DNA of 58,928 nucleotides from Candidatus Symbiothrix dinenymphae (GTDB taxonomy: Bacteria > Bacteroidota > Bacteroidia > Bacteroidales > Azobacteroidaceae). Below, in pieces: positions 6,566 to 58,849 of this stretch (position 1 is the stretch's first letter; every line of letters starts with the position of its first letter). The position numbers and the translations under genes are program-made. The notes beneath the pieces were generated by a model. It was not told the DNA's origin. It did not search any database and saw nothing but the letters and a program-made list of their open reading frames with translations. The DNA is taken from assembly GCA_001417715.1 (NCBI GenBank), contig BBRT01000078.1, positions 1 through 58,928 on the forward strand. The letters run 5' to 3'.

Positions 6566-6601
6566 CGCCTCCCGCCCCCCCCCCTGGGGGGGCGGGAGGC
6601 G
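6566..6601. terminator. GC-rich 16-bp hairpin downstream of the M23 peptidase gene
   Basis: Bases 6566-6581 (CGCCTCCCGCCCCCCC) pair perfectly with 6586-6601 around a 4-base loop. It lies 64 bp past the stop codon of the minus-strand M23 gene, where a terminator is expected. There is no clear T-run, so it could equally be part of the neighbouring palindromic repeats. Confidence 0.5.
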
Positions 6602-46089: not shown

Positions 46090-46131
46090 CGCAAAAATTA
46101 CATATATTGTCAAAATTTCAAAATTTTTGCT

Positions 46132-46139
46132 TACCTTTG
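46132..46139 (+). promoter_or_regulatory. -7 box for leader copy 1 and the MBOAT operon
   Basis: TACCTTTG followed by CG, 26 nt before the leader ATG. The surrounding bases (ATTGTCAAAATTT upstream; CCCGAAA and an A-run downstream) are closely repeated at 48972 and 57562. Confidence 0.65.
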
Positions 46140-46165: not shown

Positions 46166-46408
46166 ATGCAACTTGTGTCATTGATATTCGCTATTCTCCT
46201 GTCGGTAGGGCTTTTGCTCTATCCAATGGTTTTTCGTTATCATAACTCATTGATAATAAGCAAGTTACCCCCCCCACCCCCAACTTGCTCATTATCAAGC
46301 AGTTACGAGCGTTCGTTAAAGCTATATATTCACAAAATAACATCAGCCATATCAGGGTCATGCCTTGGTGTGGCTCTATTGGTGTGTCATTTAAAAACAG
46401 ACAAATAA
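46166..46408 (+). CDS. Small membrane-leader ORF, copy 1 (poly-C containing)
   Basis: An 80-residue ORF starting M-Q-L-V-S-L-I-F-A-I-L-L-S-V-G, a single hydrophobic segment. It then has K-L-P-P-P-P-P from a C-rich tract and a Ser/Lys-rich tail. The first 34 codons are repeated almost exactly at 54744 and 57597. It stops one base before the MBOAT ATG, so it may couple translation to that gene. Here the tract is C8-A-C5. I do not recognise a family; it may be a remnant of a larger membrane-protein gene. Confidence 0.55.
   Translation: MQLVSLIFAILLSVGLLLYPMVFRYHNSLIISKLPPPPPTCSLSSSYERSLKLYIHKITSAISGSCLGVALLVCHLKTDK
46250..46298. repeat. C8AC5 tract inside a 17-bp inverted repeat
   Basis: TTGATAATAAGCAAGTT (46250-46266) and AACTTGCTCATTATCAA (46282-46298) are inverted repeats with one mismatch, enclosing the tract at 46268-46281. 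The left half also precedes the C14 and C17 tracts, and a copy follows the G13 tract. Confidence 0.85.
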
Positions 46409-46409
46409 T

Positions 46410-47855
46410 ATGCTATTCAACTCCATCCCATTTGTGATTTTCTTTGTAATACTCTTTGCGCTGTATTACTTCGTTTTCAAAGAAAAGACTAAGCCGCAAA
46501 ACATCCTTCTGCTGGTGGCAAGTTACTTTTTCTATGCTTGGGCAGATTGGCGAATTTTGCCGCTGCTAATCATCTCAACTCTTGTCTTTTATGGCTTGGG
46601 CATTGCGATTTTCAATGCCGCAGGGTCGCGGCGAGCCACGACACTATCCACTCTCGGCGTGGTGTTTGGCATAGCCGTGTTGGGTTATTTCAAGTACACC
46701 AACTTTTTTATCTCGTCGTTCAAGGATTTGTTCGACAGCATTGGGCTGCAAACCAACCTGCACACGTTCAATATCATTTTGCCAATCGGAATCAGTTTTT
46801 ATACGTTCCGTCTGTTGAGTTATGTAATCGACATCAACAGAGGCAAATACGAGCCTACGCGCGGTATTGTAGCATTTTCTACTTATGTTGCCTTTTTCCC
46901 GTGCATACTGTCCGGTCCGATTGACCGCCCTAACACGCTCATCCCGCAGTTGCAAACCAAACGGACTTTTGACTATGCTTTGGCTGTCGATGGATGCAGG
47001 CAAATTCTTTGGGGGCTGTTCAAAAAGATGGTTGTTGCCGATAACTGTGCTACGATTGCCGATAAAATTTTCAGTCATTCGGCAGATTATTCGGGGAGCA
47101 CGCTGGTGTTGGGAGCCATCTTTTATGCTTTTCAGATGTATGCCGATTTTTCGGGCTATACGGATATGGCGATTGGGGTGGGCAAATTGCTGGGTTTTCG
47201 CTTGACAAAAAACTTCAATTATCCACTTTTTGCACAAAATATTGCTGATTTTTGGCGCAGGTGGCATATTTCGCTCACCTCGTGGCTGACGGATTATGTG
47301 TTCATGCCGCTGAACGTGAAATGGCGCAATTGGGGCAATTGGGGGATGATACTCGCCATTATTGTCAATTTTGTACTCGTTGGGCTGTGGCATGGTGCTA
47401 ATTGGATGTTTGTCATCTATGGGCTTTATCACGGATTGCTTTATATTCCACTGATTTTATCCGGAGCTATGTTCAAAAAGGTGAAGATAGAGACTTACAA
47501 ATGGGGATTTCCCAAGTTGAAGACCTTGGGCAATATGCTACTTACGTTTGCATTGGTGGCGTTTGGATTGATTCTTTTTAGAGCAGAAAGCGTTGCGCAG
47601 GCGGTTGATTATATCGCAGGGATGTTTTCTGAAACATTGTTTACAATGCCTGAATTTTCAGGTGGTAAAAAAGCTATCTTGTTTTCCGCGTTGCTAATCC
47701 TTGTCGAGTGGGCGCAAAGACAGAGAGAACATGGGCTTCAAATAAGTCATATACAAGCTTTTAGCATCAGATTATTCATCATTTATTTGGTAGCGTTTGC
47801 GATTATACTGTTCAGTGCAACAGATGCTAATCAATTTATTTATTTTCAATTTTAA
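46410..47855 (+). CDS. MBOAT-family membrane O-acyltransferase
   Basis: A 481-residue polytopic membrane protein of the AlgI/DltB branch of MBOAT. Diagnostic stretches are P-I-G-I-S-F-Y-T-F, F-x-P-x-x-L-S-G-P-I, the N-F-N-Y-P-L-F-A-Q-N-I-A-D-F-W-R-R-W-H-I-S-L motif and G-L-W-H328-G-A-N-W with the invariant histidine. Such enzymes pass acyl groups across the membrane onto surface polymers, with an SGNH-type partner. Here the SGNH-like gene starts 3 bp downstream. Acyl donor is inferred to be the carrier protein encoded at 51433. It follows leader copy 1 by one base. Confidence 0.93.
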   Translation: MLFNSIPFVIFFVILFALYYFVFKEKTKPQNILLLVASYFFYAWADWRILPLLIISTLVFYGLGIAIFNAAGSRRATTLSTLGVVFGIAVLGYFKYTNFFISSFKDLFDSIGLQTNLHTFNIILPIGISFYTFRLLSYVIDINRGKYEPTRGIVAFSTYVAFFPCILSGPIDRPNTLIPQLQTKRTFDYALAVDGCRQILWGLFKKMVVADNCATIADKIFSHSADYSGSTLVLGAIFYAFQMYADFSGYTDMAIGVGKLLGFRLTKNFNYPLFAQNIADFWRRWHISLTSWLTDYVFMPLNVKWRNWGNWGMILAIIVNFVLVGLWHGANWMFVIYGLYHGLLYIPLILSGAMFKKVKIETYKWGFPKLKTLGNMLLTFALVAFGLILFRAESVAQAVDYIAGMFSETLFTMPEFSGGKKAILFSALLILVEWAQRQREHGLQISHIQAFSIRLFIIYLVAFAIILFSATDANQFIYFQF

Positions 47856-48971: not shown

Positions 48972-48979
48972 TACCTTTG
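48972..48979 (+). promoter_or_regulatory. -7 box for the fkbH-like operon
   Basis: TACCTTTG followed by CC, 24 nt before the ATG. The same promoter context is seen before leader copies 2 and 3, where a leader ORF separates it from fkbH sequence. Confidence 0.65.
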
Positions 48980-49003: not shown

Positions 49004-50782
49004 ATGATGGATTTCACCACTTTATCAAAAAATCTCAAAAAAGATTTCTCTCACTTGAAACCGATTAAGGTTGCTGTTTTGGGGGATTCGGCTACGCAGT
49101 TTCTGGTGCAGGCATTGCGCGGCACGGGCTATGAGTTTGGGTTTGATTTACAGGTGTTTGAGGCAGAGTTTAATCAGATTGACAGGCAAATATTAGACCC
49201 CGATTCGGAATTGTACGCCTTCAATGCAGAGGTGGTGCTTATTTTTGAATCGACACACAAATTGTTGCAGAAGTACAATAAAAAACTGCTTCGTCATGAC
49301 GGGCTGCCTCGCTTCGCCGAAGATGCACTTGCACACACAAAGCAGTTGATTTCCACCCTGCAAAGCAAAACCAACGCGAAAATCATTTTTTGCAATTACA
49401 CCGAAGAGGACGACCGCGTTTTTGGGCAATACGCCAACAAAGTGGAAGCCTCTTTTGTCTATCAACTGCGCAAACTGAATTTCTTAATACAGGAATTTGC
49501 GGCGCAAACAGGCAATTTTTATGTCTGCGATTTGAGTACGATTCAAAATACGATGGGGCGCGAAACATTCTGGGCACCAAACGTTTATACGAACACGGAA
49601 ATGGTGGTGAGCATTGATGCTTTGCCCTGTTTTGCGCAATCGGTGCTGCAAATTATCGCTGCTTTTCAGGGGGCATTTAAGAAATGCGTGATTCTGGACT
49701 TGGACAACACCGTGTGGGGCGGCGTGATTGGCGATGATGGCATCGACAACATTCAAATCGGGCAATTGGGTATTGGAAAGGCGTTTACGGAATTTCAGTA
49801 TTGGTGCAAAAAGTTGCAGCAACGCGGAATAATCCTCGCGGTATGCAGCAAAAACACCGAATCCATCGCGAAAGAGCCGTTTGAAAAGCATCCCGATATG
49901 GTGCTGAAATTGACGGATATTGCCGTTTTTGTCGCCAATTGGGAAAACAAGGCGGACAATATCCGCAAAATTCAAAAGATATTGAACATTGGCTTCGATT
50001 CGATGGTTTTCCTGGACGACAATCCGTTTGAACGCAACATCGTGCGCGAAAATGTGCCCGGAATCACAGTACCCGAACTTCCGGAAGACCCTGCACTCTA
50101 CCTGGATTACCTCTACAGCCTGAACCTGTTTGAAACCATTTCCTATTCCGGCGAAGACACGCAACGCACTGCCCAATATCAAAAAGAGGCGGAACGGGTG
50201 ATTTTTCAGGAAGCATTTACCAACGAAGACGATTTTTTGAAAAGCCTCAATATGGTGTCGGACACCAAACCGTTTGACAATTTTACTATTCCACGTGTGG
50301 CACAACTGTCGCAACGCTCCAACCAATTCAATTTGAGAACGATACGCTACACCGAAGACGATGTGAAACGCATTGCGCAATCGGCACAATACTTCACGCT
50401 GTCGTTCACATTGGAAGATAAATTTGGCGACAACGGCTTGATTTGCGCCATCATTTTAGAGAAACGCGATGCCCAAACGCCCGAAAATAAAACTCTATTT
50501 ATCGACACATGGTTTATGAGTTGCCGTGTCTTAAAACGCGGCGTAGAGGCGTATGTGCTAAACGCCATCGTCGATTTGGCAAAAGCCAACGGATACGCCA
50601 CTGTGGAGGGCGAATACATCCCCACGCCCAAGAATGAGATGGTGAAAGACCATTATGAAAAACTTGGATTTGTGCCCGCCTCTGCCCGTCATTGCGGGCT
50701 TGACCCGCAATCCCCCGCGACATTATGGCAATTGGATGTGAATGGTTACGAAAAGAAAAACAATTACATAACAAAAAAATGA
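49004..50782 (+). CDS. FkbH-like HAD-superfamily protein
   Basis: A 592-residue protein. An N-terminal SGNH-like segment (about 20-190) is followed by a HAD-IIIC phosphatase-like domain with D232-L-D234-N-T-V-W-G-G-V and K-N motifs, and a GNAT-like C-terminal domain (about 430-560). Characterised FkbH-like enzymes load a glyceryl unit from 1,3-bisphosphoglycerate onto an acyl carrier protein. An ACP gene is two genes downstream. The C-terminal end carries R-H-C-G-L-D-P-Q-S-P (562-571) from a REP element, then a Lys/Asn/Tyr-rich tail. The stop overlaps the KilA-N gene start (ATGA). Starts at 49004 or 49007. Confidence 0.9.
   Translation: MMDFTTLSKNLKKDFSHLKPIKVAVLGDSATQFLVQALRGTGYEFGFDLQVFEAEFNQIDRQILDPDSELYAFNAEVVLIFESTHKLLQKYNKKLLRHDGLPRFAEDALAHTKQLISTLQSKTNAKIIFCNYTEEDDRVFGQYANKVEASFVYQLRKLNFLIQEFAAQTGNFYVCDLSTIQNTMGRETFWAPNVYTNTEMVVSIDALPCFAQSVLQIIAAFQGAFKKCVILDLDNTVWGGVIGDDGIDNIQIGQLGIGKAFTEFQYWCKKLQQRGIILAVCSKNTESIAKEPFEKHPDMVLKLTDIAVFVANWENKADNIRKIQKILNIGFDSMVFLDDNPFERNIVRENVPGITVPELPEDPALYLDYLYSLNLFETISYSGEDTQRTAQYQKEAERVIFQEAFTNEDDFLKSLNMVSDTKPFDNFTIPRVAQLSQRSNQFNLRTIRYTEDDVKRIAQSAQYFTLSFTLEDKFGDNGLICAIILEKRDAQTPENKTLFIDTWFMSCRVLKRGVEAYVLNAIVDLAKANGYATVEGEYIPTPKNEMVKDHYEKLGFVPASARHCGLDPQSPATLWQLDVNGYEKKNNYITKK
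50688..50715 (+). repeat. REP-like palindrome, copy 11 (inside fkbH-like gene)
   Basis: Full consensus copy near the 3' end of the gene; in frame. Confidence 0.9.
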
Positions 50783-51432: not shown

Positions 51433-51675
51433 ATGGAAAAAAGAGAAATTTTATCAAAGGTGCAGGACAGTTTCAGAGATGTGCTGGACGAGGAGAGTAT
51501 CAATTTGACGGAGGCAACAACCGCCAACGATGTAGAGGGCTGGGATTCGCTGACTCACATTCAATTGATTGTGGCGATTGAAAAGCTGTTTAAGATTAAG
51601 TTTACCTCCAAAGAGATTCTTTCGTGGAAGGATGTGGGTGAAATGGTTGATTGTATTCAAAGTAAAGGAGTATGA
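51433..51675 (+). CDS. Acyl carrier protein
   Basis: An 80-residue acidic four-helix carrier protein. The phosphopantetheine site is Ser39 in G-W-D-S-L-T-H. The D-S-L-T-H wording, rather than D-S-L-D, is typical of specialised carrier proteins, not the fatty-acid AcpP. It overlaps the next gene by ATGA. Likely carries the acyl group made by the FkbH-like, MaoC-like and SDR proteins. A deletion remnant of an acp gene is at 57816-57905. Confidence 0.92.
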
Positions 51676-52079
51676 TATTTCAGGAAGGACAGACATACGA
51701 GGACAAATTTTGCGTTTCGAGTGACGTTTACAACGGTTTTATCGATGTTTTCCATGATAAAAATCCATTGCATACCGATGTTGCGTTTGCGAAAAGCAAA
51801 GGATTTGAAAGCCGTGTTATGCACGGAAATATCTTGAATGGATTCCTCTCCTATTTCATAGGCGAACGCCTTCCAACGAAAGATGTGATTATCCATTCGC
51901 AGGAAATTCAATTCAAAAATGCAGTCTATCTCGATGATGAATTAGATTTCAAGGCACAGGTGGTAGGCATTTATGAATCTGTGAATGCAGTCGAATTTAA
52001 ATTTGAATTTCGCAGAAATTTAACAAATTTTAACAAATGGGGGGGGGGGGGCAAATTGTTGATAATCAGCAAGTTATGA
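51672..52079 (+). CDS. MaoC-like dehydratase, C-terminus set by a G13 tract
   Basis: Hot-dog-fold hydratase/dehydratase with the R-specific hydratase motif D29-x-N-P-x-H34 and F-x-S-R-V-M-H-G. As read (135 residues) it ends K-L-L-I-I-S-K-L just after a run of 13 G. With 14 or 11 G the frame would instead continue through [21 protein letters not shown] and stop at 52136-52138, as an ATGA overlap with the SDR start. That second end matches the usual family C-terminus, so the present sequence is the truncated state or a mis-counted homopolymer. It acts on an acyl thioester, here presumably acyl-ACP. Confidence 0.85.
52039..52051 (+). repeat. G13 homopolymer tract in the maoC-like gene
   Basis: Thirteen G, confirmed by the reading frame (Trp-Gly-Gly-Gly-Gly-Lys). 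TTGATAATCAGCAAGTTA, the word that adjoins all three C tracts, follows at 52059-52076. Confidence 0.9.
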
Positions 52080-52134
52080 ATTCGGAAAAGCCCCAATTGG
52101 TTGCAAAAGGAAAATTTCAAATAGGCATATTATC

Positions 52135-52857
52135 ATGAACATATTAGTCACAGGCGGTTCTTCCGGTTTAGGAAAAGCAATCACCCAAAAGTTAGCTGAG
52201 GATAAAGGTAATCGGGTTTATTTTACCTATCATAAATCGGTGGGAAGTGCAAAAGAAATAAGCAGTCGATGTGCGAATTCTATAGGGATAAAGTGTGATT
52301 TCTGCAACAAAGACGATGTAAAATCGTTAGTTAGTCAGATAGCCGAAATGCATTTGGAAGTTTTAGTAAACAATGCTTACAGTGGGGCATTCTTAAAAGG
52401 GCATTTTCATAAGGTGTCTTCATCTGATTTTTTAGCAGAGTTCGAGAAAAATCTTATTCCAACGATTGAAATTGCGCAGGCTGCTATAAGCCTATTTCGT
52501 AAAAAACGGCAAGGGAAAATAATAACCGTTTTGACTGCGGCATTGTTAGATATTCCTCCGGTAGGTGCTTCTATGTACGTGGCAAATAAAGCCTATTTGG
52601 AAAAATTGACAAAGGTTTGGGCATCAGAAAATGCAAAATACAATATCTCGTCCAATTCCGTTTCGCCATCTTTTATGCAGACAGCCCTCACATCTGATAC
52701 GGATGAGAGAATCATTGAGCAGATGCTCAATGAGCATCCGTTGAAGCGATTGTTAACTGTCGAAGAAGTGGCAGAAACCGTTTTGTTTTTAACGAAAGCA
52801 TCCCCACAGTTGAATGGGGTGGATATTGTCATGAATGCCGCAATGAATATAGAATAA
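52135..52857 (+). CDS. Short-chain dehydrogenase/reductase
   Basis: A 240-residue classical SDR resembling 3-oxoacyl-ACP reductase. The cofactor motif T6-G-G-S-S-G-L-G13, N-N-A (79-81) and Y148-V-A-N-K152 are present. The usual catalytic serine position (about 135) reads T-A-A, so activity may be altered. It is probably NADPH-dependent and may reduce or oxidise the ACP-bound group. Its ATG overlaps the full-length MaoC reading frame (ATGA), so the G-tract state could also change its translation. Confidence 0.88.
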   Translation: MNILVTGGSSGLGKAITQKLAEDKGNRVYFTYHKSVGSAKEISSRCANSIGIKCDFCNKDDVKSLVSQIAEMHLEVLVNNAYSGAFLKGHFHKVSSSDFLAEFEKNLIPTIEIAQAAISLFRKKRQGKIITVLTAALLDIPPVGASMYVANKAYLEKLTKVWASENAKYNISSNSVSPSFMQTALTSDTDERIIEQMLNEHPLKRLLTVEEVAETVLFLTKASPQLNGVDIVMNAAMNIE

Positions 52858-54708: not shown

Positions 54709-54716
54709 TACCTTTG
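54709..54716 (+). promoter_or_regulatory. -7 box for leader copy 2
   Basis: TACCTTTG followed by CC, 27 nt before the leader ATG; same downstream context as at 46132 and 57562. Confidence 0.65.
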
Positions 54717-54743
54717 CCCCCGAAAATTAAAAAAAAAAAGAAA

Positions 54744-54866
54744 ATGCAACTTGTGTCATTGATATTCGCTATTCTTCTGTCGGTAGGGTTCTTGCTCTAT
54801 CGGAGAGAGGTGTGCCTTTATAACTCATTGATAATGAGCAAGTTACCCCCCCCCCCCCCATTTTAA
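54744..54866 (+). CDS. Small membrane-leader ORF, copy 2 (C14, frame off)
   Basis: A 40-residue ORF, M-Q-L-V-S-L-I-F-A-I-L-L-S-V-G-F-L-L-Y-R-R..., ending K-L-P-P-P-P-P-F after 14 C. With 15 or 12 C the frame would continue without a stop into the fkbH remnant (M-M-D-F at 54935). In the present state the two are out of frame. Confidence 0.55.
   Translation: MQLVSLIFAILLSVGFLLYRREVCLYNSLIMSKLPPPPPF
54846..54859 (+). repeat. C14 homopolymer tract
   Basis: Fourteen C directly after TTGATAATGAGCAAGTTA in leader copy 2. Confidence 0.9.
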
Positions 54867-54934
54867 CGTTTATTAACACTTCGGGGTGTTTCTGTCGCCA
54901 TCATCGCGAGTCAAGTAACCTTAACTTGCTTGAC

Positions 54935-55162
54935 ATGATGGATTTCGCCATTTTATCAAAAAATCTCAAAAAAGATTTCTCGAACTTGAAACCGATTAAG
55001 GTTGCTGTTTTGGGGGGCTTTGAATCGACCCACAAATTGCTGCAGAAGTACAATAAAAAACTGCTTCGTCATTGCGGGCTTGACCTGCAATCCCCCGCGA
55101 CATTGTGGCAAATGGATGTGAACACATATAAGAATAAAAACAATTATATAACAAAAAAATAA
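54935..55162 (+). pseudogene. Deletion remnant of the fkbH-like gene
   Basis: A 75-codon open frame made of three pieces of the 49004 gene: its first ~27 codons (M-M-D-F...V-A-V-L-G), then F-E-S-T-H-K-L-L-Q-K-Y-N-K-K-L-L-R-H (parent about 83-99), then the last ~30 codons (C-G-L-D...N-N-Y-I-T-K-K). The HAD and GNAT domains are gone. The second junction joins CGTCATgacGGGCT of the parent to CGTCATtgcGGGCT of its REP element, so deletion between short similar sequences is likely. It remains open and may still be translated. Confidence 0.9.
55068..55095 (+). repeat. REP-like palindrome, copy 12 (in fkbH remnant)
   Basis: One C-to-T change (GACCTGCAA) relative to consensus, giving C-G-L-D-L-Q-S-P. 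Confidence 0.9.
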
Positions 55163-55167
55163 TAGAT

Positions 55168-56094
55168 ATGAATAGAGAAGAATATACTTTACAGGATTTT
55201 CTTGATATTGAAGGTCAAAAAAATGTAATTCAAGCAAAATTTTTGGAGACCTCGCTGTCCGAGATTACGCCCGAAGAGATTGTAAAATTCAACAATTTGC
55301 TACATTTCTACATGCAACGTGGGAATAATACATTGGAACAAATTGTAGATAAATACTTAAATCTCGTTTCTTTCATAATGGAAGACCAACGTTATTTTGT
55401 TGAATATGGCAAATATCGGTTTTCAACATTTGCAGAAGTGGAAAACTATTATAAAGACTTTAATTACATGGATAGCTACACAGTAGGGCTTGGGCTATCT
55501 ACTTACCTTTGGCCTGTGCATCGTGAAATGATGCGATTGTTTCGCAAGTACTTGATTATCAGCAATATGTGTGAGGGATGGCGGAAATACCTCGAAATTG
55601 GTCCCGGTCATGGAGAATATCTTACAACTGCTATGCAGCAAACAAATTTCAAACAATACATAGCTGTGGATATTTCTAAAACGAGCATAGATTTAACATC
55701 CGATTATATTCAGCATACAATGCCTGAAACCGATAAATCATACAAATTAATCCATGAAGATATATTCAAGTATCAGACACAAGATTTATTTGATATGATT
55801 GTGATGGGTGAGGTGTTGGAACATGTTGAAAATCCAACCGCTTTTTTACACAGAGCCTATCAGTTAGCGTCAAATGAAGCGTATATTTTTATTACGACGG
55901 CAATTAATGCTCCAACGCCTGACCATATTTATCTGTTCAACAATTTGAAGGAAGTAACAGATATGCTCGAAAAAGCAGGCTTCAGCATAGTAGATTACGT
56001 GGCTGCCAATACCAACAATGTCCCTTTGGAGAAGGCTGAAAAAAGGAAAATCCCGATAGTGTGCGGGTTTATATTGAAGAAAAAAAATACATAA
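55168..56094 (+). CDS. SAM-dependent class I methyltransferase
   Basis: A 308-residue protein. A helical N-terminal region (about 1-125) precedes a Rossmann methyltransferase domain with motif I E-I-G-P-G-H-G-E-Y, an acidic D-I-S-K-T-S loop and M-I-V-M-G-E-V-L-E-H-V-E-N-P. The type is that of small-molecule or glycan O-/C-methyltransferases. It begins 5 bp after the fkbH remnant stop and thus sits under the leader copy 2 promoter. Substrate unknown; a role in tailoring the same surface product is inference. Confidence 0.82.
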   Translation: MNREEYTLQDFLDIEGQKNVIQAKFLETSLSEITPEEIVKFNNLLHFYMQRGNNTLEQIVDKYLNLVSFIMEDQRYFVEYGKYRFSTFAEVENYYKDFNYMDSYTVGLGLSTYLWPVHREMMRLFRKYLIISNMCEGWRKYLEIGPGHGEYLTTAMQQTNFKQYIAVDISKTSIDLTSDYIQHTMPETDKSYKLIHEDIFKYQTQDLFDMIVMGEVLEHVENPTAFLHRAYQLASNEAYIFITTAINAPTPDHIYLFNNLKEVTDMLEKAGFSIVDYVAANTNNVPLEKAEKRKIPIVCGFILKKKNT

Positions 56095-56133
56095 TTAAAA
56101 AATAAAAATGCTATTCAACTCACAGATTTTTAC

Positions 56134-56141
56134 TACCTTTG
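56134..56141 (+). promoter_or_regulatory. -7 box for the MNT/HEPN pair
   Basis: TACCTTTG followed by CA, only 7 nt before the ATG at 56149, so the transcript may be leaderless or nearly so. Confidence 0.55.
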
Positions 56142-56148
56142 CACCGTT

Positions 56149-56463
56149 ATGAACAGGAGAAAAATCGTACAATCGTTAGGAAACACATTGCATAGGAATG
56201 TTCCCAATGCAACGGTCATCTTGTATGGCAGTGAAGCCAGAGGCGATGCTCATGCAGACAGTGATATTGATTTGCTGATTTTGGTGGATAAGGACACTAT
56301 TTCACCGCAGGAACGCCGAGATATAACCTATCCGTTATATGATGTGGAATTGGAAACGGGAGTAATTATCAGTCCCAAAGTGTTTTCTAAACGACTTTGG
56401 GAAGATAAATTTTCTATTACCCCATTTTATCACAACGTAATGAAGGAAGGGATTGTGTTATGA
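56149..56463 (+). CDS. MNT-type nucleotidyltransferase
   Basis: A 104-residue minimal nucleotidyltransferase with the G-S-E-A-R-G-D...D-S-D-I-D-L-L motif. In MNT-HEPN systems this protein is the antitoxin, which AMPylates the HEPN RNase. Its stop overlaps the HEPN start (ATGA), as expected for the pair. Confidence 0.88.
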   Translation: MNRRKIVQSLGNTLHRNVPNATVILYGSEARGDAHADSDIDLLILVDKDTISPQERRDITYPLYDVELETGVIISPKVFSKRLWEDKFSITPFYHNVMKEGIVL

Positions 56464-56851
56464 TTGACCGGGAAACAAGAAAAGCAATTGTCGCTTAGAG
56501 AACGCACATAAGACATTGCAGGAAATCCCAATTCATATTGAAAACGAATTATGGAACACGGCAATAAATCGCTTGTACTACGCCTGCTTTTATGCTGTCA
56601 CCGCTTTGCTAATCAGTGTGGAAATAGAAGCCCACACTCACGCCGGGGTTAGGCGAATGTTGGCTCTGCACTATACAAAAGATGGAAAATTGCCGCTTAA
56701 ATGGAACAGGTTTTATACAGACCTGTTTGAGAGTAGGCAGACGGGCGATTATGAAGACTTCATCTACTTTGACAGGGCAACCACAGAAGATTTTTATAAA
56801 CAGGCTATTGACTTCATCGACATTATTGAAGCCTTGATAGATAAATCGTAA
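56460..56851 (+). pseudogene. HEPN-domain gene with 5' frameshift
   Basis: The ATG at 56460 opens M-I-D-R-E-T-R-K-A-I-V-A then stops at 56496-56498. In another frame R-L-E-N-A-H-K-T-L-Q-E-I-P resumes at 56492 and continues to the stop at 56851 with an intact HEPN domain (N-R-L-Y-Y-A-C-F-Y-A). Together the two parts read as a normal HEPN toxin, so a single-base loss (or a two-base gain) near 56490 has broken it. Re-initiation at a TTG (56516) or frameshifting could still give product. Confidence 0.8.
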
Positions 56852-56882
56852 AAATTGGAGGTGACCAGCAACCCCATTTATC

Positions 56883-56899
56883 GCATCTCTACGGGATGC
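56883..56899. repeat. Solitary GCATCTCTACGGGATGC palindrome
   Basis: An isolated near-copy of the palindrome that makes up the repeats at 1-236 and 6102-6510, in the spacer between the HEPN and PIN genes. Confidence 0.7.
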
Positions 56900-56921
56900 G
56901 GCTGATATAAAGAACTTGGGT

Positions 56922-57320
56922 CTATTGATAATGCGTTGAGCCTTGTTGTTTTATCACCAAATTTTGCACTCTTGCAAAATGTCTTATATTCAGAGTTGAC
57001 AACGGACAATTGTGCGCAATAGCGGTTGCCGCAATTAATAAATCCGGCAATGCTATCAATTTGTTTTCTACCTTTAAATTGTTGTAAATTTTAGCCGCTT
57101 GATACGAGCATTTTTCATCAAACGAAATGATAGTGAGCTGTTTAAAAAAGTCTACCCAGAAATCAATCTGGGGCGGACGGACACCGATGAACAGTTCATA
57201 ATGTGTCAACACAGAAACCGCAAACATATCTTCTTCCGCCGCTAACTGAAAGAAGAGTGTTTTGGATTTGTCTTTGGCTCGAAACAATTCTATCAATACA
57301 GACGTATCTAATAAAATCAT
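56922..57320 (-). CDS. PIN-domain toxin, VapC-like
   Basis: A 132-residue PIN-fold RNase. Acidic residues of the active site are visible in I-L-L-D-T-S (D5), the E in L-T-H-Y-E-L and D in L-P-D-L-L-I-A-A. It is coupled to the upstream small gene by an ATGA overlap, the standard order antitoxin-toxin. Confidence 0.88.
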   Translation of the reverse strand: MILLDTSVLIELFRAKDKSKTLFFQLAAEEDMFAVSVLTHYELFIGVRPPQIDFWVDFFKQLTIISFDEKCSYQAAKIYNNLKVENKLIALPDLLIAATAIAHNCPLSTLNIRHFARVQNLVIKQQGSTHYQ

Positions 57321-57508
57321 CCTCTCCAGTGGTTAAAGTGTTGATTTCTTTCTAAATAGCCATTAAAATCTTCATCAGACCACGTTGGCACTTGCAACAA
57401 CACTTTTTGCATAGAAGTTAATTTCTGCACTTGCGCTCCAATTTTACCTCTCACCAGCACTTTCTCTGAGTCTAAAACCGGAGAATTAATATATGCTTGC
57501 ATTTTCAT
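57317..57508 (-). CDS. Small antitoxin, VapB-like
   Basis: A 63-residue protein (M-K-M-Q-A-Y-I-N-S-P...) ending in an acidic/aromatic tail (W-S-D-E-D-F-N-G-Y-L) that would bind the PIN toxin. A farther in-frame ATG at 57535 is possible, but a TACCTTTT promoter-like box at 57522-57529 argues for the shorter form. Confidence 0.7.
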   Translation of the reverse strand: MKMQAYINSPVLDSEKVLVRGKIGAQVQKLTSMQKVLLQVPTWSDEDFNGYLERNQHFNHWRG

Positions 57509-57561
57509 ATTGAATTTTTTTAAAAGGTAATACAAATTTTTGTATTGTCAAAATTTTTCTT

Positions 57562-57569
57562 TACCTTTG
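57562..57569 (+). promoter_or_regulatory. -7 box for leader copy 3
   Basis: TACCTTTG followed by CA, 27 nt before the leader ATG. Confidence 0.65.
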
Positions 57570-57596
57570 CACCCGAAAATTAAAAAAAAAAAGAAA

Positions 57597-57905
57597 ATGC
57601 AACTTGTGTCATTGATATTCGCTATTCTCCTGGCGGTAGGGTTTTTGCTCTATCGGAGAGGGGTGTGCTTTTGTAACTCATTGATAATGAGCAAGTTACC
57701 CCCCCCCCCCCCCCCAATTTTAACATTTATTAACGCTTCGGGGTATTTCTGTCGCCATCATCGCGAGTCAAGTAACCTTAACTTGCTTGACATGATGGAT
57801 TTCACCATTTCATCAAAAGTACAGGACATTTTCAGAGATGTGCCGGATGAGGAGAGTATTGGAGAAATGATTGGTGCTATTCAAAACAAAACAAAGAGTA
57901 TATGA
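57597..57905 (+). CDS. Leader copy 3 fused in frame to fkbH/acp remnant (C17, frame on)
   Basis: A 102-residue ORF: the membrane leader (M-Q-L-V-S-L-I-F-A-I-L-L-A-V-G), six prolines from a C17 tract, a spacer, then M-M-D-F-T-I-S-S (start of the fkbH-like protein, 57792) joined to K-V-Q-D-I-F-R-D-V-P-D-E-E-S-I (acp residues about 9-23) and G-E-M-I-G-A-I-Q-N-K (acp C-terminus). The phosphopantetheine serine region is deleted, so it cannot act as a carrier. The stop overlaps the next gene (ATGA). Gain or loss of one or two C would cut the fusion. Confidence 0.6.
   Translation: MQLVSLIFAILLAVGFLLYRRGVCFCNSLIMSKLPPPPPPILTFINASGYFCRHHRESSNLNLLDMMDFTISSKVQDIFRDVPDEESIGEMIGAIQNKTKSI
57699..57715 (+). 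repeat. C17 homopolymer tract
   Basis: Seventeen C directly after TTGATAATGAGCAAGTTA in leader copy 3; the longest homopolymer in the window. Confidence 0.9.
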
Positions 57906-58849
57906 AACTGATATCGTTCTCAAACTTTATTCCTGAACAAATTGCCGATACTATTCGGTTTAGAAACTATAGTGGGGTTTTTAGACAATCTCATTATTGC
58001 CAATATGTGCAAAATTTTCTATCCAATGTGCTGGAAGATCCTACGATTGAAGGTGCTGTTTTGCCTAATAGTTGCGATAGTGCCCGCAGTGCAGTTGATT
58101 ATTTAGCGGAGTCCAGCGGTAAGTACATATATTCACTCAAACATCCAACCATTGTGAGTGATGAAGCTATATTGTATTTTGCGCAGGTTATTCGCGAATA
58201 CAAAGAAAGTCTTGAAGCCCATTTTGGACAGCGTATTCCTAACGGATTAATTATGGAACGTACGGATTTACTCCGTAAACGGGGAAAATATCTTTACGAT
58301 TTGTATAATAACATCGGAGATAATTCTTATGTTTCCTACATTGAACAAATGAATACAATGTTATCAAAACCGCTTGTCGAATGGGAAAAATGGGCACCTG
58401 TTCCTCTGGCAAATTCAAAACAAGGGAAAAATGTATATCTCATTGGTCCCTTTCTTGACAACCCTTCCATATTGAGACAAATAGAGCAAAGTGGACTTCG
58501 AATTGTTGGTGACAATCTTACCAATTCAAAGCGACTTGCTTGGGATTCTTATTATTGCAAAGAAGAAAGTCTGTATGTGGATATAGCCTCTCACATCTTA
58601 CATCATCAAGCTTCGCCAACAATAGCGCGTTTCTCGTCCATTTGGGAAAAGGATTTTGCCGAAATAAAACAGAGAAATGTGAAGGGCGTGATATTTTTGT
58701 GTCAAAAATTTTGTGAACCCTACGATTATCTGTACACTATGTATAAAAAAAGACTACAAGTTGCAGATATTCCGCTTCTACGTGCTTATATCAGCGATGA
58801 TGAAGAAACCGGTAACTCTCTTTGGGAGACTTTTGCGGAAATAATATAG
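57902..58849 (+). CDS. 2-hydroxyacyl-CoA dehydratase subunit-like protein
   Basis: A 315-residue protein resembling the HgdB/FldB/BadD family, whose members dehydrate 2-hydroxyacyl-CoA by a radical route with a [4Fe-4S] cluster. Supporting stretches are L-P-N-S-C58-D-S-A-R-S, G-L-I-M-E-R-T-D and F-L-C267-Q-K-F-C271-E-P-Y-D-Y-L, which place cysteines as cluster ligands. It is shorter than most members (about 380-430). It is coupled to the leader/acp remnant by ATGA. An activator ATPase is normally required and is not seen in the window. Confidence 0.75.
   Translation: MKLISFSNFIPEQIADTIRFRNYSGVFRQSHYCQYVQNFLSNVLEDPTIEGAVLPNSCDSARSAVDYLAESSGKYIYSLKHPTIVSDEAILYFAQVIREYKESLEAHFGQRIPNGLIMERTDLLRKRGKYLYDLYNNIGDNSYVSYIEQMNTMLSKPLVEWEKWAPVPLANSKQGKNVYLIGPFLDNPSILRQIEQSGLRIVGDNLTNSKRLAWDSYYCKEESLYVDIASHILHHQASPTIARFSSIWEKDFAEIKQRNVKGVIFLCQKFCEPYDYLYTMYKKRLQVADIPLLRAYISDDEETGNSLWETFAEII

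Follow-up and report, generated by a model that had tools for sequence, protein, structure and literature searches.

Phase variation in Bacteroidota is mostly discussed as DNA inversion, and in Bacteroides, which belongs to the same order as the symbiont considered here, invertible promoters and shufflons control surface functions stochastically. The homopolymer contingency loci of Campylobacter, Neisseria and others carry the run within a gene or its promoter, and REP/RAYT-type repeats are short dispersed palindromes. Here, we analyzed a stretch of 58,928 nucleotides from Candidatus Symbiothrix dinenymphae (contig BBRT01000078.1 of assembly GCA_001417715.1, hereafter the window), which is contig 78 of a genome of 3.52 Mb in 346 contigs (G000). 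It carries three units composed of a promoter, a short leader open reading frame (ORF), a palindrome P (AAYTYRYTSATWATCARYRAGTT) and a C tract, which are probably slippage-controlled, phase-variable leader ORFs. As in the Campylobacter and Neisseria loci, where surface-related genes are concerned, poly-G or poly-C runs set the frame. Unlike in those loci, the run is often placed in a leader ORF of its own, next to a recurring gate formed by P or a second motif, T. Compared with the invertible promoters of Bacteroides, the control proposed here is the phase of the tract (no inversion search was made). Compared with REP/RAYT-type repeats, the palindrome is coupled to a C run and lies in translated leaders or genes, and no Y1 transposase was found in G000.

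The closest described system is that of the pil1 and pil3 loci of Streptococcus gallolyticus, where, according to Danne et al. (2014; PMC3894217), slippage of a repeat in the leader ORF moves its stop codon. In isolates of this species, expression is mostly low when the stop lies 28 nt or more ahead of the terminator and mostly high when it lies shortly before, inside or beyond it (PMC3894217). The claim in the original prediction that no such element had been described needs correcting, since the pil1/pil3 leaders, as presented there, use a related principle. In both systems, a leader ORF carries a repeat whose length sets the position of its stop; expression was measured there, whereas the comparison here concerns geometry alone. 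Furthermore, the streptococcal repeats, in a Gram-positive organism, are pentamers (GCAGA) and concern two pilus loci, while a C run and a palindrome gate are found here at many Bacteroidota loci, often with coupling or fusion suggested instead of, or besides, a terminator. The units may represent a modular, multi-locus form of known slippage switching, which would act in the manner of simple sequence repeat phase variation and, where a terminator is present, of pil1.

All three units anticipated in the original prediction are present, as members of a repeat family (D1) with starts at 46117, 54695 and 57548; the parts of the units and of the genes beside them that are mapped below lie on the plus strand. 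The common promoter context also holds, as a -7 motif TACCTTTG begins 34–35 nt upstream of each leader ATG (46132–46139, 54709–54716 and 57562–57569 in copies 1, 2 and 3) and matches the Bacteroides consensus TAnnTTTG given in PMC7366714. As predicted, the same motif stands without a leader 32 nt 5′ of fkbH (48972–48979). From ATG to tract each leader start spans 34 codons (102 nt), of which 85 bases are identical between copies 1 and 2, 86 between copies 1 and 3 and 96 between copies 2 and 3. P precedes the C tract in all three copies (46244–46267, 54822–54845 and 57675–57698), and the tracts have the anticipated lengths of C8AC5 (46268–46281), C14 (54846–54859) and C17 (57699–57715). The tract of copy 1 carries P on either side (second P at 46282–46305), and its interruption probably makes it less prone to slip. 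In copies 2 and 3, the tract is followed by motif T (ATTTTAACnTTTATTAACA in copy 2, 54860–54878; 57716–57735 in copy 3), which in copy 2 has stops in two of the three frames. A leader ORF with a repeat and an upstream promoter, as in the pil1-type arrangement, is present in the window copies. The sequence TTGATAATnAGCAAGTTA was matched seven times in the window at up to 3 mismatches (0.18 expected), five times within the tract units and twice outside them (5640 and 46029, 3 mismatches each), and the C8 pattern gave 27 overlapping matches against 0.9 expected.

The frame relations to the following genes agree with those worked out earlier. Copy 3 (leader ORF 57597–57905) is in frame with the M-M-D-F ORF and is currently open through an internally deleted remnant resembling an acyl carrier protein (ACP), which was recognized by visual comparison with the ORF at 51433. 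The TGA of copy 3 overlaps the ATG (as ATGA) of an HGD-D-like gene of the 2-hydroxyglutaryl-CoA dehydratase D-component family (57902–58849; PF06050, 3.6e-26). The leader ORF of copy 2 (54744–54866) ends in its current phase at a stop codon starting 4 nt past the tract and needs one additional base. With this base, the frame is open through an fkbH remnant with internal deletions (54935–55162, single open frame) to a TAA ending 5 nt before the ATG of a methyltransferase gene (55168–56094; PF13489). The parent type of this remnant is the fkbH-like gene at 49004–50782 (PF21211 and repeat comparison). In both copies, the two remaining phases stop 4–15 nt past the tract. Copy 1 is open towards the MBOAT O-acyltransferase gene (46410–47855; PF03062, 4.6e-17), as claimed: its leader ORF (46166–46408; 80 aa in the current phase) ends with a TAA at 46406–46408, followed by a single T and the ATG.

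Two further leaders are found in a relative (G005). The one on contig C239 carries C14 and, if one base shorter, would have its TGA overlap the ATG of the following ORF (ACP-like start, by eye), while the one on C170 lacks both P and tract, and its TGA overlaps an fkbH-like ATG (ATGA). In all four tract-bearing ATG leaders tested (copies 1, 2, 3 and G005 C239), one phase stops between -8 and +1 nt from the next ATG. When the stretch between tract and gene was shuffled, so close a stop was obtained in 6% (copy 1), 0.07% (copy 2), 1.3% (copy 3) and 3% (C239) of cases. As in slipped-strand phase-variable loci, a long homopolymer sets the reading frame here, and this anatomy gives good support to a tract-length switch that would bring the leader into frame with the downstream sequence.

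In P, two frames are usually closed by stops and the third is open, and motif T behaves alike. The long frame through P differs between loci: it is of the LII type in L170, L183, L195, L205, L265 and L300, reads SLSAS in L186, L196 and L268, and reads DNQQV in the MaoC-like gene of G005. Since the frame varies in this way, P is not conserved for one peptide, and the P-encoded LIISKL was rejected as a peptide of fixed function. The center of P is TGAT in the six LII loci and TCAT in the three SLSAS loci, so that the SLSAS frame loses the TGA; TCAT is also present at other loci at which such a fusion is not seen. In the left arm of P, which lay outside the search constraint, at least 5 of 7 positions pair in 39 of 51 elements.

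Based on these observations, we propose that transcription would start from the Bacteroidota-type promoter and that the short ORF would be translated into the unstable C run. We infer that slippage in living cells would alter the run by one base and thereby set the frame in which the ribosome leaves the tract. The gate beside it, either P or the A+T-rich motif T, would offer stops in two frames and leave one open. In the open frame, the ribosome would end at the next start codon, giving translational coupling (MBOAT, methyltransferase, HGD-D-like), or would fuse the leader to the gene; where a terminator hairpin intervenes, the ribosome should block its formation, which would amount to antitermination. 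The gated phases would stop early and leave the gene off or low, so that the predicted output is ON/OFF. P may also have a role beyond that of a gate.

The units are not confined to the window. A search of G000 for the leader and the P–polyC run, as had been proposed, revealed two more leader copies, both on contig C1: the C run of one is short and broken, and the other is degenerate and carries C20. The alternative of a single gene family with no other copies and no length variation does not hold, since copies of other tract lengths occur in G000 and in its relatives. C/G runs of at least 9 number 72 in G000 against about 12 expected from the base composition of the window. Per genome, such runs range from 0 to 72 among 38 members of the genus, and because of that span this habit is lineage-specific. 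Exact matches to TGATAATNAGCAAGTT in G000 and G005 adjoin a C- or G-rich run in 15 of 15 cases (the run on C1 being broken and short), whereas none of the three single matches (G007, G011 and G012) has such a run beside it. A looser P pattern occurs at 59 places in G000 and G005.

In 84,980 genomes, one per species, a scan for C8 followed within 25 nt by half of P yielded 45 stretches, several of which are probably due to chance (e.g., L172, L190, L194 and L208). All 45 lie in records titled Bacteroidota, nearly all Bacteroidales, including rumen Bacteroidaceae, Paludibacteraceae, Alistipes and others; some are metagenome-assembled genomes that we take to be of termite type. Within the family of the window's organism, the pattern was found in G000 and G005 only, among 45 genomes, and a scan of viral contigs gave one stretch. 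Of 53 elements, 42 have an ATG leader that reads into the tract. In Rfam, no curated family matched the window at gathering score, and 14 loci gave three sub-threshold matches. As side observations, locus L144 (G000:C337:49033-49433) holds a C12 run with TTTAACTTTATTTAACA on both flanks, as if an inserted C run had duplicated its target, and L095 in a genus relative has a C17 run after a P-like sequence inside a chain-length (Wzz-type, by eye) membrane protein.

Downstream of P, a hairpin with a T run that meets a strict terminator definition was observed in 12 of 49 elements, compared with 0.55 expected; elements with less than 110 nt after P or with a repeated flank were dropped. At 11 of the 12 terminator loci an ATG leader is present (L264 lacks a leader start), and a phase rule was evaluated there, with the window copies outside the test: the stop of every phase should fall either 25 nt or more ahead of the hairpin or no earlier than 8 nt ahead of it, and both classes should be represented. 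All 11 loci follow this rule (4.46 expected; 6.62 if only the presence of both classes is required), giving the same split into an early stop and a stop at or after the terminator as in pil1. Since a functional terminator was not shown for the window copies, we do not assign them to the pil1 class. Copy 1 does contain the hairpin AGCCATATCAGGG..CCTTGGTGTGGCT (46345–46375), the same as the terminator-like hairpin of L199, here without a good T run.

Tract length differs among relatives as well as among paralogues. Copies 2 and 3 share 96 of 102 leader bases and carry C14 and C17. In a pair from G000 and MS499-82 with 95.4% identity across 2,854 bp, C12 with an altered edge stands against C14, and both leaders open into the same gene (PAP2 in L205) via different ATGs. 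L264 and L199 carry C18 and C14, with 96% identity over 304 bp on one side and 84% over 876 bp on the other; the upstream part is rearranged, and L264 has no recognizable leader start. L170 (C11) is open into its gene, whereas its homolog L171 (C10) is not. The tract of a MaoC-like gene is G13 and out of frame in the window, versus G8 and in frame in G005.

In the window, this MaoC-like ORF (51672–52079) is truncated after the G13 tract (52039–52051), which is adjoined by a palindrome-like P (52053–52076), and its C-terminal part lies in another frame; the G005 ortholog is in frame. A unit resembling the P–tract of the leaders sits inside MaoC in both G000 and G005, and a distant homolog in G013 (L259, G013:C268; 26% identity) has no internal unit at that place. 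This homolog has a C10 run immediately 5′ of its ATG. At 52077–52140, the full-length MaoC-like frame would end on the ATGA of the next short-chain dehydrogenase gene, as in G005, and for this reason the phase of the tract may affect both genes.

The leader itself looks like an ordinary fkbH operon start, because the tract-less G005 leader ends overlapping the fkbH ATG. In a rival explanation by ordinary relics, the normal 5′ end of the fkbH operon was duplicated together with fkbH and ACP fragments and the C runs are functionless and hypermutable. The position of copies 2 and 3 before truncated fkbH and ACP-like pieces, and the reading of the tract-less G005 leader up to an fkbH-like gene, fit such a history. 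However, tract and P also precede unrelated genes and occur in other Bacteroidota, the frames stay open to the next start, terminators are enriched and the phase rule holds in 11 of 11 loci, which makes this explanation unlikely. The mobile cassette of about 195 bp between promoter and gene, as originally proposed, stands in part: a piece holding palindrome, tract and T motif seems to come and go, but the leader around it looks ordinary. Compared with the tract-less G005 leader, the extra piece, which lies between the same flanks, measures 74 nt in copy 2 and 78 nt in copy 3, with boundaries placed by eye, as automatic alignment did not place them. Movement of this P–tract piece was deduced from comparison rather than observed, and deletion in G005, gene conversion or common descent could produce the same pattern. 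It is conceivable, though doubtful, that P and C tract, with or without T, form a portable phase-variation module inserted in leaders and genes, in which the two-frame stops on either strand of P would make the host gene ON/OFF and which would be reused often across Bacteroidota for surface and polysaccharide-modification genes. We regard it as quite unlikely that a REP- or MITE-like palindrome–C tract unit simply spreads in the genome with the frame effect as a by-product. Leaders with and without the 74–78 nt piece, the similar piece in MaoC of two species that is not there in the distant G013 homolog, and the reading of P in different frames would suit such a unit. Against it, no transposase is linked (Y1, the only transposase type tested, counts four in G005 and none in G000), the comparison of filled sites with the empty G005 leader did not show a clean target duplication, and a deletion can account for the tract-less leader. 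A RAYT-type transposase as its driver is unsupported in G000, which has no Y1_Tnp.

Copy 1 has a mosaic structure with its junction at the tract: its leader resembles copies 2 and 3 up to this point, and from 46262 to 46565, into MBOAT, it matches L199 at 71%. Such a junction could reflect recombination, as the original prediction also suggested, whereby the C/G run, a possible G-quadruplex, and the palindrome would promote the exchange of promoter and leader between genes. As the mosaics are static and alternative junctions of one locus were not seen, a recombination switch appears highly improbable. Classical attenuation, with a run of proline codons or polyproline stalling that senses proline or EF-P, would agree with tracts that form CCC codons in leader ORFs with hairpins downstream. 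Nevertheless, it is scarcely credible here, since the tracts are nearly pure C rather than mixed proline codons, no proline gene is among the Pfam matches behind the leaders, and the run on the MaoC strand reads as glycine.

Several points weigh against slippage-controlled leader ORFs. The observed differences in tract length are differences between genomes or paralogues, which are not proof of switching within one population, and draft assemblies may misjudge long C runs. The four shuffled loci (copies 1, 2, 3 and C239) are non-independent, and related loci make the terminator and phase tests non-independent, too. Copies 2 and 3 precede decayed fkbH and ACP pieces, and these pieces owe their open frames and stops in part to the parent genes. 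The gate of copy 1 is weak because all three phases pass the second palindrome (they stop 35, 124 and 153 nt past the tract), and its tract is interrupted. By the strict definition, 37 of 49 tract and P elements have no terminator; in 11 of 53 elements, L264 among them, no ATG is open into the tract; and the C20 copy on C1 has a frame ending on ATGA, yet no ATG opens that frame. Furthermore, a P-like sequence alone is not specific, because looser P matches stood without a C/G run in all seven contexts inspected. Covariation in P is modest, with 267 of 357 arm cells pairing in the 51 distinct elements compared with 258 ± 3.2 after shuffling, a value reached by 12 of 2000 shuffles. Finally, five of 13 leader-associated proteins gave no Pfam match (L165, L170, L182, L186 and L196).

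The other eight of these 13 proteins match BspA-type LRR (L166 and L180), Big_2 (L176 and L206), a T9SS tail (L168), WG repeats (L265), PAP2 (L205) and MBOAT (L264). The survey of G000 tracts covered 67 of the 72 (one was dropped as a repeated flank). Apart from the leaders, a G11–G16 run lies near the end of a signal peptide of about 24 codons in 13 TonB-receptor-like genes of G000 (L260, L266, L272, L283, L286, L289, L292, L293, L294, L301, L305, L308 and L310). Both of those scanned, L305 and L260, contain Plug and CarbopepD_reg. Two of the 13 are in frame (L305 and L308). Among all 19 genes with a tract in the signal peptide, three are in frame, 14 are out of frame and two (L304 and L312) run into a contig edge; for L262, L291 and L308, an edge follows 20–45 codons on, so their frame assignment is weaker. 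The TonB-receptor-like set resembles a phase-variable family in which few receptors are switched on. Elsewhere in the window, a C10 run at 6575–6584 lies within a GC-rich inverted repeat (CGCCTCCCGCCCCC...GGGGGCGGGAGGCG) that is unrelated to P.

If the proposed mechanism is true, a reusable leader through which slippage of a homopolymer leads to coupling or antitermination would constitute a second genome-wide route of phase variation in the phylum. It would also generalize a leader mechanism that, among the papers listed, has been demonstrated for streptococcal pili only (PMC3894217; cited in the review PMC5891635). Because the arrangement is readable from sequence, switchable genes would become predictable in uncultured symbionts.

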